Positions 22,394 through 62,888 of a stretch of 64,000 bases of DNA are shown here, in pieces. Position 1 is the first letter of the stretch. Each line of letters begins with the position of its first letter. The position numbers and the translations under genes are program-made. The DNA is from Perognathus longimembris pacificus (taxonomy: Eukaryota > Chordata > Mammalia > Rodentia > Heteromyidae), in contig NC_063170.1 in assembly GCF_023159225.1 (NCBI RefSeq), positions 27,120,301 to 27,184,300 on the forward strand, in the 5' to 3' direction. Below the pieces are notes generated by a model. It had not been told where the DNA came from and made no database searches. It was given only the letters and a program-made list of their open reading frames with translations.

Positions 22394-22597
22394 AGGGCTG
22401 GGAATATGGCCTAGTGGCAAGAGTACTTGCCTCGTATATATGAAGCCCTAGGTTCAAGTCCCCAGCACCACATATATAGAAAATGGCCAGAAGTGGCACT
22501 GTGGCTCAAAAGGTAGAGTGCTAGCCTTGAGCAAAATGAAGCCCGGGACAGTGCTCAGGCCCTGAGTCCAAGGTCCAGGACTGGCAAAAAAAAAAAT
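22394..22597 (+). mobile_element. IDL-Geo SINE, older subfamily
   Basis: Full dimer with private changes. The repeat 'ttattaag' flanks it at 22386-22393 and 22598-22605. Confidence 0.94.
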
Positions 22598-22618
22598 TTA
22601 TTAAGAATATATGAATGC

Positions 22619-22837
22619 GGGGCTGGGGATATAGCCTAGTGGCAAGAGTGCCTGCCTCGGATACACGAGGCCCTAGGTTCGATTCCCCAGCACCACATAT
22701 ACAGAAAACGGCCAGAAGCGGCGCTGTGGCTCAAGTGGCAGAGTGCTAGCCTTGAGCGGGAAGAAGCCAGGGACAGTGCTCAGGCCCTGAGTCCAAGGCC
22801 CAGGACTGGCCAAAAAAAAAAAAAAAGAAAAAAAAAA
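22619..22837 (+). mobile_element. IDL-Geo SINE, young subfamily
   Basis: Full dimer inserted just after the previous one, with a perfect 16-bp duplication 'aagaatatatgaatgc' at 22603-22618 and 22838-22853. It matches the young subfamily consensus at nearly every base. Confidence 0.97.
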
Positions 22838-25703: not shown

Positions 25704-26521
25704 TAGGGGAAAGACTCGACAAATAGGACTACTACAAGTTAAAAAGTTTCTGCACAGCTAAGGACATAGCCACCAAAATAGAAAGACAGCCAACGATATG
25801 GGAAAGGATATTTACCAGCACAGCAACAGACAAAGGCCTGATATCTATCATCTACAGAGAACTCAAAAAACTAAGCCCCTCCAAGCCCAATAAACCTATT
25901 AGGAAATGGGCAAAGGAGCTAAAGAGAGACTTCACAAGAGAAGAGATAAAAATGGCAAAGAAACACATGAGGAAATGCTCAACATCCCTGCTAGTAAAGG
26001 AAATGCAAATAAAAACAACCCTGAGATACCACCTCACCCCAGTTAGAATGGCCTATACTCTGAACTCAGGCAACAACAAATGCTGGAGGGGCTGTGGGGA
26101 AAGAGGAACCCTTCTCCATTGTTGGTGGGAGTGCGAATTAGTACAACCACTTTGGAGAACAGAATGGAGGTTTCTCAAAAAGCTCAATATAGACCTACCC
26201 TATGACCCAGCCATATCACTCCTAGGCATCTATCCTAAATAGCAAAACCCAAGATATCAAAAAGACATTTTTACTTCCATGTTTATCACTGCACAATTCA
26301 CAATAGCCAAAATATGGAAACAACCCAGATGCCCCTCCACAGATGAATGGATCCAAAAAATATGGTACTTATACACAATGGAATACTACATAGCGATTAG
26401 GAATGATGAAATATTGTTATTCGCAGGGAAATGGTCAGAACTCGAACAAATAATGTTGAGCAAGACAAGCCTAGAACACAGAACACAAAGGGGCATGATC
26501 TCCCTGATATATGACTGTTAA
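25704..26521 (+). pseudogene. L1 ORF2 C-terminal remnant
   Basis: This is the tail of the LINE-1 ORF2 protein, downstream of the reverse transcriptase core. Recognisable family stretches include '[16 protein letters not shown]', '[13 protein letters not shown]' and 'YTMEYYIAI', and the frame ends at a TAA at 26519-26521. The cysteine-rich CX3CX7HX4C motif, needed for retrotransposition in known L1s, is complete. Two in-frame TAG codons and loss of the front of the protein make it a pseudogene. The low decay suggests a recent insertion. Confidence 0.95.
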
Positions 26522-60745: not shown

Positions 60746-61337
60746 AAGAAAAAGTAGTGAGACTTCCCCTTTACCCCTGAGAGAGAAGCTGCCACCTGGA
60801 TAAGGTGCAGACGCCATGGTGCTCCCTCTTCCATGGGAGATATGGCCCCACTAATAAACCTCCTAAGCAAATGCTTCCCTACATCCAACAGCAGCAAATT
60901 TGCCCTCACACCCAGGAATTTTGCAGGCAACCCAGAAGGAGGTGTGACAATCTATCCAGGGGACTCTGAGATGCCACTACAGCCTCACCCAGATCAAACC
61001 CATCTCTCCTGCCTGCCTCCATCACACATGACTTATGAAGCCTGCTGATTCAGGATGGAAGACACAGCCACTTCGGACCTGCTGAAGCTGAGACTTTTAC
61101 ATTGTCCTGACCCTTTGCCCTCTTGATTGTTAATTCATTTGTGTTCTCTTCCACCTGCCAGTAAGGTTAAAAGATGATTTGATTTGATGGCACATGGATC
61201 TCATTCAGTCTGCTGTTCTCTAAATGTTACATCAAAACTCTGACAAGTACTTGTTGGTCAATTCTCAACAAGTTACAGGTAAGCTCTACTCCTATTGTTC
61301 TCCTTGTTGCTTTAATTAGAAATAAAAAGGGCTTTTA

Positions 61338-61782
61338 TGGCTAAGACTCCTTGGATTGCTGTTCAAAGCCAGCCCGGGCAGAAAAAAATATATCCCTCTA
61401 AAACTCCATCTCCCAACTAGCCAGCAAAGAGCCAGACTAGAAGCTTGGCTCAAGAGAACCAGCCAAATGTTGAAAGCAGCACCATGGCTCTAGTGGTAGA
61501 GCACTAGCCTTGAGCAGAAGTGCTCAGAGACGGGCTGGGGATATGGCCTAGTGGCAAGAGTGCTTACCTTGAATACATGAAGCCCTAGGTTCGATTCTCC
61601 AGCACCATGTATACAGAAAACGGCCAGAAGTGGTGCTGTGGCTCAAGTGGCCGAGTGCTAGCCTTGAGCAAAAAGGAACCAGGGACAGTGCTCAGGCCCT
61701 GAGTCCAAGGCCCAGGACTGGCAAAAAAAAAGTGCTCAGAGACAGTGCCCAGGCCTTGCCTTCAAACCCTGTGAATGCCAAC
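61338..61782 (+). mobile_element. B1-dID-type SINE, split by an IDL-Geo
   Basis: 'tggattgctgttcaaagcca', 'ctcccaactagccagcaaag', 'agcaccatggctctagtggt' and, after the inserted SINE, 'aggccttgccttcaaaccct' form one composite SINE lying inside the retroviral copy. The B1-like 5' end is missing. Confidence 0.8.
61532..61730 (+). mobile_element. IDL-Geo SINE, older subfamily
   Basis: Full dimer inside the SINE above. The 13-bp duplication 'agtgctcagagac' lies at 61519-61531 and 61731-61743. Confidence 0.96.
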
Positions 61783-62026
61783 TGGGACCAGCTATCCGAT
61801 CAATGAGAACCTAGACCTCCAGGACGAGGTCAATCCTGACAACGAGGAACCATGGAGAGGAGTAAGAGGAGATGAAGTCTCATCTTAAATGGAGTAAATT
61901 TAAACTTGCCCTTTCAAAATTAATCAGAGCCAGGAGATCAAGAGGAATAGTTGTTTACCCACCTAATGTCCATACCTGTCCATTTTCCATCTGGACAGAA
62001 ACTTGCATTCTTGCCTTTGTTACTTG

Positions 62027-62031
<5 letters not shown>

Positions 62032-62080
<49 letters not shown>
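62032..62080. repeat. (AT)n microsatellite
   Basis: Twenty-four AT units inside the retroviral insertion. Confidence 0.97.
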
Positions 62081-62082
<2 letters not shown>

Positions 62083-62089
62083 TCACAAC

Positions 62090-62660
62090 CCCAGTCAACT
62101 ATCCCTAAACACTTCCTTCCTGCTCCCAGGCCAGTTATTCCTCCTTCCTTGTAATGAGCCACAATTGGGTTTATGTTCCAAATGGAACTTTTCTGGCTTG
62201 TGCCAAGGGTGTGTTCTCCCATGTTGTTCATGTTAACTGGTCCTGTTAACTTGTCAGCCTTTTACCTGACCTTTTCAAAAGTCTCATTTAACAGGATAAC
62301 ATCCCTCACTGAGGACACCACCTGGGAACTTGCAGCTCAAGGCCATCCTCTTACTACACTGCTGTGCCCAGCACAGATCTGGACCCTGAAGACCCCAGCC
62401 CCAGGGACTCCTTGATGTGCTCAAGCTGCAGGAGGTAGCCAGAGAAGACCATGACATTCATTGGCCCTGATAACCATTCTCATGGAAATGATGAGGACTT
62501 TTACTAACCAAACTAGACGGTACCAGGTCAAATGACCAATCAGGGACCCTTGACTACTTGGCCCCTTTTCAGCAGGAAGTAGTTCCAGAAGAGACAACCT
62601 CCGCCCATACTCCCAGACTGGTACCCCTCCTCTGTTATTAATAAACAACAAATGGGGGAA
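62090..62660 (+). pseudogene. Degraded retroviral 3' coding segment, probably env end
   Basis: The position directly upstream of the polypurine tract and U3, together with short interrupted open stretches, suggests the end of an env gene. Stops and frameshifts break every frame, and no fusion peptide or immunosuppressive-type motif can be read with confidence. The assignment rests mainly on location, so a simple untranslated leader or noncoding spacer is possible. It cannot encode a functional protein. Confidence 0.35.
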
Positions 62661-62864
62661 TGTTAGCATTTCCCTAGCCTCAGGTCCTCAGCTCCTCCCA
62701 CTAGCCCCCAGATCCACCCATACCTAATGAGCCACTCCTACTCACTACCTAACTACTTCCCCTTTACCCCAGAGAAGTTGCCACCTGGATAAGGTGCAGA
62801 TGTCATGGTGCTCCCTCTCCCGTGGGAGATATGGCCCCACTAATAAACCTCATTATGAACCTTC
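62643..62864 (+). mobile_element. Retroviral 3' LTR part (U3 and R) ending at poly(A)
   Basis: Starts 'tgttagcatttccctag' right after a purine tract ending 'aatgggggaa', and runs through the R-like repeat with the polyadenylation signal 'aataaa' at 62842-62847. The A run begins about 17 bases after the signal, as in a processed RNA. No U5 follows. U3 is short, about 110 bases, and I see no clear TATA box. Confidence 0.65.
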
Positions 62865-62888
62865 AAAAAAAAAAAGAAAAAGTAGTGA

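Follow-up and report, generated by a model that had tools for sequence, protein, structure and literature searches.

Putative L1-type retrocopy of a spliced, non-autonomous endogenous retrovirus transcript in Perognathus longimembris pacificus, and related insertions from a lineage devoid of the primer binding site

Ordinary processed pseudogenes are retrocopies of mRNAs made by L1 in trans, and are recognized by intron loss, an A tail and a long target-site duplication (TSD). L1 also mobilizes retrovirus-derived RNA in the SVA and SINE-R composites, and it generates bipartite chimeras, which are formed by template switching. The closest precedent for the locus described here, already invoked in its initial annotation, is given by the processed pseudogenes of HERV-W in primates. 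According to two reports, these carry R-U5 but no U3 at the 5′ end, have no U5 at the 3′ end, and show an A tail, a TSD of 5–15 bp and a TT/AAAA motif (PMC5016936, PMC5537654).

The locus lies in a stretch of 64,000 nucleotides of the P. longimembris pacificus genome, herein called the window, and its features are collected in Table 1. The initial annotation had noticed an R-like repeat at both ends, U3 before the 3′ copy only, an A run behind it and a perfect 15-bp flanking duplication, and all four were recovered. The two R segments are 94% identical over an ungapped core of 81 nt, with one 4-nt indel further 5′; the A run starts exactly at the R/U5 boundary; and the duplication is exact, with no 15-nt match arising when the 3′ flank was dinucleotide-shuffled 20,000 times. 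In two cruder controls, in which repeats were not filtered, a 15-nt match at the TSD spacing was found at 468 of 200,000 random window positions, and the window held 157 exact 15-mer pairs at a spacing of 2128 ± 100. Between the two R segments there are five substitutions, the 4-nt indel and a deletion, so that either the parental LTRs had diverged beforehand or the segments of the window mutated later. Their last bases differ because of the deletion, which was inherited. As in the HERV-W processed pseudogenes, the element starts at R without a 5′ U3, and its 3′ LTR consists of U3-R only and is followed by a poly(A) tail (also present as A17 in the related copy C6 and as an A-rich tail in the related copy C4), the TSD falling within the HERV-W range. 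Behind the 5′ R, U5 is absent, having been lost together with the primer binding site (PBS) by a deletion common to three other loci. The two full LTRs and the duplication of 4–6 bp expected of a provirus are likewise absent from the window, as the initial annotation had remarked.

Table 1. Features of the element and its flanks in the window
Feature	Position	Strand	Remarks
5′ TSD, AAGAAAAAGTAGTGA	60746–60760	+	Exact repeat at 62874–62888
G preceding R, outside both TSD and LTR	60761	+	Possibly copied from the cap
R, 5′ end	60762–60864	+	AATAAA at 60853–60858; 87–95% to R of relatives; aligned to 3′ R
CCTCCT microhomology, R-leader deletion join	60859–60864	+	Same join in C6 (L017), C4 (L032) and C3 (L033)
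Leader, end of exon 1 (...CTCACACCCAGG), 52 nt	60865–60916	+	Donor GTAAGT next in C3, C4 and several other relatives
Splice junction; 1167-nt GT-AG intron missing	60916–60917	+	Comparison with the C4 copy
Exon 2, element body	60917–62660	+	Collinear with proviruses; no protein domain recognized (10 of 49 frame pieces, Pfam)
5′-truncated SINE fragment, part of family body	61338–61531, resumes at about 61744–61770	+	Left edge by eye; provirus L009 matches through at 92–95%
ID-type SINE inserted after (or in) the window copy	61532–61729	+	Own 14-bp TSD AAGTGCTCAGAGAC at 61518–61531 and 61730–61743
Polypurine tract AAATGGGGGAA, U3 edge	62650–62660	+	Same stretch before U3 in the C4 copy
U3 (TGTTAG...)	62661–62754	+	Present only before 3′ R
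3′ R, ending at the R/U5 boundary	62755–62864	+	AATAAA at 62842–62847; U5 follows at this base in 31 of 34 R ends from fetched loci
A tail	62865–62873	+	Two more A shared with TSD
3′ TSD, AAGAAAAAGTAGTGA	62874–62888	+	Exact copy of 60746–60760

The initial annotation had proposed a search for full proviruses with the U3/R segment, and the window's own genome (2.21 Gb searched) does hold related proviruses with full LTRs. With a U3-R query, the best 40 of 2005 first-look candidates matched at 93–100%, the window itself at 100% and the other 39 at 93–96%. The LTR of the relatives measures about 262 bp (TGTTAG...CTTTCA), as seen in the solo LTRs L003, L004 and L008, whose 5-bp duplications, read by eye, are AATGC, GTATC and TATCC, respectively. 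A provirus of about 3.27 kb at C10:50873426 (L007 and L009) has two LTRs and the 5-bp duplication CTTTC, and two LTRs are likewise present in L010 and L025, each about 3.2 kb long. In L013, the sequence next after U5 is TTGGTGCCGAAACCCGGGA, which by eye agrees at 18 of 18 positions with what we take to be the tRNA-Phe complement, the PBS presumably being of the tRNA-Phe type. Because of the LTRs, the 5-bp duplications and the PBS-type stretch, these relatives form a family of ordinary short retrovirus-like elements, with the U3-R-U5 and PBS that the window copy does not show.

The body of the window copy is collinear with the proviruses, the SINE fragment at about 61338–61770 included, and the reading of the body as a host lncRNA was dropped in view of this. 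The fragment, which we take to be B1-dID-like, is also present in proviral relatives such as L009 and was apparently captured before the family spread. A rearranged relative, L019 (C28:67093400-67101000), has body segments in tandem repeat ahead of its 3′ LTR. The initial annotation had judged the body too short for gag-pol and the RNA probably spliced or internally deleted; splicing and an inherited deletion were indeed found, but a loss of gag-pol need not be assumed, since the parent family is itself only about 3.2 kb long, and it is mainly this length, together with splicing and the one deletion, that accounts for the small size. Pfam searches with 10 of the element's 49 listed frame pieces gave one sub-threshold chance match only, and no match was obtained in PDB sequence searches with two body pieces, in a protein search with one 85-aa frame piece, or when viral and prokaryote contigs were scanned for exact patterns. 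A first impression of an envelope-like motif in the body found no support from any tool, and no such motif is claimed here.

The edges of the element were compared with those of LTRs in the fetched loci, which were picked by similarity to the window, so that the proportions given here are not those of the genome. Among 34 recognized R ends, 31 continue into U5, two into A-rich sequence (C6, L017; C4, L061) and one into a shortened U5 (L022). This count leaves out the window, and a 5′ R joined to the deleted leader fails the pattern. Both A-rich ends sit in loci with the deletion, and the window provides a third A-tailed end. At the other edge, the base before R is T in 32 of 32 LTR copies (three chance matches dropped), the 3′ copies of the window and of C6 included, and the base after the 3′ TSD of the window is also T; before the 5′ R of the window, however, there is a G. 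This G would be a non-templated base copied from the cap, and the RNA would begin at the A of ACTTCCCC. A G also precedes the 5′ R in C6, but it may belong to the TSD of that copy.

The missing intron is visible in the C4 copy, which reads CACACCCAGG/GTAAGT...TGTGTAG/AATTTTGC, with 1167 nt between the two sites. In the window CACACCCAGG is followed directly by AATTTTGC, so that both exon edges of C4 are reproduced exactly, and C6 is identical there. The boundary between 60916 and 60917 is a GT-AG splice junction, a spliceosomal intron loss as in processed pseudogenes. The leader of C3, C4 and several other relatives terminates in CTCACACCCAGG with GTAAGT next to it, and their body begins behind TGTGTAG. 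A motif search of 15 loci recovered both sites, besides C4, only in L015, where they are separated by about 2.0 kb, and in L029, where the distance is about 2.4 kb and the donor is altered; in the remaining scanned loci, one or both were missed, altered or outside the locus. With a query that spanned the junction, two of the 40 matches listed from 2727 first-look candidates ran across it, namely the window and C6; C3 and C4 matched as far as the donor, and the remaining 36 from about the acceptor on, one of them being exon 2 of C4. The suggestion that 60862–61320 and 61783–62640 were the spliced pieces did not hold, as L009 reads straight through both, with the SINE fragment between them.

C6 (L017, C6:68183800-68191400) has the same splice and the same deletion as the window, along with its own TSD (AAGAATAACCAG) and an A17 tail. 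Its TSD is A-rich and 12 nt long, a length reached by 2 of 20,000 shuffles, and an ID-type SINE starts directly at the end of the 3′ TSD. Counted by substitutions, the window and C6 are 97.13%, 96.94% and 96.78% identical over their three main alignments. In a tree of 62100–62655 (nine rows), C6 is sister to the window with support of 100/99; a tree of 61783–62030 (11 rows) did not resolve its position; and in a tree of 60917–61330 (10 rows), which is without C6, SINE-split in that piece, the closest sequence to the window is that of the provirus L025 (95.3%). C4 is absent from all three trees. C6 is a second, independent spliced copy.

The C4 copy is unspliced and ends in an A-rich tail. Upstream, a SINE that measures 211 nt with its tail joins R at the position corresponding to 60779 (G000:C4:40605197-40605560; L032, L060). 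The TSD is imperfect: AAACTTTTGA stands before the SINE, and its counterpart behind the tail, AAACCTTTTGA, is one base longer. This arrangement is best explained by a single insertion, in which reverse transcription would have switched template from the retroviral RNA to a SINE RNA; possibly, the SINE was instead inserted later, without a duplication of its own. The remaining locus with the deletion, C3 (L033), shows U3-R, the deleted leader, the donor and the intron, within which it breaks off at a SINE; the rest of the 10.5 kb examined has SINE-type matches only, with no exon 2 or LTR. Of the introns compared with that of C4, the intron of C3 has the highest substitution identity (94.9% over 924 sites, against 84.5–93.1% for nine other loci, summed over matching pieces that may overlap), but with gaps counted the value is 75.8–77.4%, below the main pieces of L007, L010 and L015 (80.8–83.4%). 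C3 was considered as the direct parent; given the poor gapped match of the intron and the missing exon 2 and 3′ LTR, this was not established, and no complete direct parent with a 3′ end was found among the loci examined.

The window, C6, C4 and C3 have in common a deletion of about 0.2 kb, which removed the end of R, U5 and the PBS and joined R to the leader at a CCTCCT microhomology. At the join, AATAAACCTCCT of R (AATAAACTTCCT in C3) meets GAGCGAATGC or a variant, and CCTCCT is present in both partners, while ordinary relatives have U5, the PBS and extra leader between R and the 52-nt leader. It is because of this inherited deletion that the window copy has no PBS, and a scan within it gave no site better than shuffles. 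A strange U5 behind the 5′ R had been considered, and was replaced by the deletion after comparison with ordinary leaders.

To gauge how special the join is, a 20-base leader pattern was used, which at up to three mismatches gave 439 matches, against 19 for the reversed control. The matches listed include at least 8 without mismatch and at least 13 with one, the four loci named above being among these 21. The other 17, with three more at two mismatches, made up a set of 20 loci, of which none, by eye, has the R-leader join and none is spliced; 17 show the end of U5 and a PBS-like stretch, and L071, L072 and L073 are altered upstream. Because most of the 20 have a U5 sequence unlike that of the window family, the PBS-less lineage may have arisen by recombination between two related families. 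Loci L065–L084 belong to a second LTR family, with a different U5 and with PBS, leader and splice donor common to the window family; L074 combines this leader with a window-type U5, which suggests recombination between the families.

Several other histories could be imagined for these data. The initial annotation had named full-length relatives with U3 at the 5′ end as an argument for a recombined provirus, and such copies do exist in the same genome. That the element is a normal or recombined provirus which lost its 5′ U3 and 3′ U5 by deletion, and which a chance repeat happens to flank, is nevertheless extremely improbable, as its edges fall exactly at the start of R and at the R/U5 boundary, the 3′ edge is followed by an A tail and a 15-bp TSD, the element lacks a GT-AG intron, and C6 has independently the same layout with a different TSD. 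There is virtually no chance, in turn, that the window and C6 represent one insertion duplicated along with its surroundings: the two are closest kin in one tree piece, but their 800-bp flanks have no homology at E 1e-3 and their TSDs differ.

We also regard it as very unlikely that the cDNA was made by a reverse transcriptase of the element itself or of a helper retrovirus and then integrated through nicks and repair with no involvement of L1. Nothing direct speaks for such a route, the nearest point being that proviral replication with 5-bp TSDs did occur in the family at one time; against it, the RNA lacks a PBS, the A tail at the 3′ end directly adjoins the TSD, as target-primed reverse transcription would leave it, and the C4 copy has the layout of a SINE/ERV template switch. 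As for the loss of U5 and the PBS, an origin in RNA or cDNA, by an aberrant splice or a jump of the reverse transcriptase, seems very unlikely. The CCTCCT microhomology would suit such a jump too, but the same join occurs in four loci, and C3 has U3 in front and is thus not an RNA copy starting at R. The deletion was probably already present in parental DNA, as supported by the U3 of C3.

Very probably, then, the window copy was made from a transcript of a non-autonomous ERV that had been capped, spliced and polyadenylated, and was inserted in trans by L1-type target-primed reverse transcription, its parent lineage being without U5 and the PBS through a microhomology deletion. A proviral lineage would have lost these segments by that deletion; transcription from U3/R, splicing and polyadenylation of its RNA would have remained possible, but tRNA-primed reverse transcription would be unable to start. 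RNAs with the deleted leader, two of them spliced, would have carried a cap and a poly(A) tail added at R, and would then have been reverse transcribed at a nicked target, starting from the A tail. The L1-mediated insertion of a retroviral RNA proposed in the initial annotation thus agrees with the absence of a 5′ U3 and of a 3′ U5, the A end, the TSD, the missing intron and the second spliced copy. Sequence comparison shows the layout of the element, its splice junction, the deletion common to the four loci and the separate insertions, comprising a second spliced copy and an unspliced third; the agent would be L1, rather than another endonuclease and reverse transcriptase.

Insertions of the same kind are common in this host, whose SINEs fit a rodent, since 10 of the 13 ID SINEs compared in the window have TSDs of 9–16 nt lying no more than 3 nt from their start. 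At 22395–22819, the window has two head-to-tail ID-type SINEs, the second apparently inserted at the duplication of the first. A remnant of L1 ORF2 (C-terminal part) at 25727–26242 matched L1 ORF2p with E 2.4e-78 in a PDB search; Pfam searches with 10 other frame pieces of the window, the L1 ORF2 piece included, gave nothing at E 0.01. The nick site counts against the proposed mechanism: the TT/AAAA consensus, which is also the HERV-W motif, is found in none of the copies, the window having GC/AAGA, C4 AT/AAAC and C6, which is closer, TT/AAGA. The differences between the two R segments of the window, the A-rich TSD of C6, the one-base difference in the TSD of C4 and the failure to find a complete parent among the loci examined also speak against it, as does the nearness of L025 in the tree without C6.

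Because the window, C6 and C4 copies share the deletion, RNAs of the PBS-less lineage were inserted by L1-type machinery at least three times. In the examined loci, all three A-tailed copies have a PBS-less 5′ end, which would suggest that loss of the PBS favours, or at least unmasks, the L1 route. It is conceivable, although we rather doubt it, that a lineage unable to copy itself for want of a PBS kept spreading only via L1, with spliced and unspliced RNAs inserted, one of them as a SINE chimera.

The locus offers a second natural case, in a non-primate and in another group of retroviruses, for asking what makes a retroviral RNA a substrate of L1; a PBS-less lineage is the source of every one of the three or more L1-type insertions, among which spliced as well as unspliced RNA is represented. 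No rodent report of L1-type retroviral retrocopies was found in the accessible parts of the open literature, a scope that excludes most subscription papers, and there is a faint suggestion that the rodent case is new; the mechanism itself is known from HERV-W.

Intron loss, the A tail and the long TSD are shared by the window copy with ordinary processed pseudogenes, from which it differs in that its RNA came from the LTR promoter of a non-autonomous retrovirus and has R at both ends. With the bipartite L1 chimeras, C4 shares the fusion of a SINE to the retroviral 5′ end inside one imperfect TSD, the difference being that its 3′ partner is a retroviral RNA. Like SVA and SINE-R (PMC7353768), the RNA of the window copy is retrovirus-derived and would depend on L1, but here only three insertions are known, and nothing so far points to an amplified family. 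The likeness to HERV-W is the closest: the window copy also has the shape of an RNA, an A tail at the end of R, a TSD in the same range and proviral relatives in the same genome. It differs in the host and in the ERV group, with a presumed tRNA-Phe-type PBS, a 262-bp LTR and a length of about 3.2 kb, and in an RNA that was spliced and in which R is joined to a leader without U5 and the PBS.
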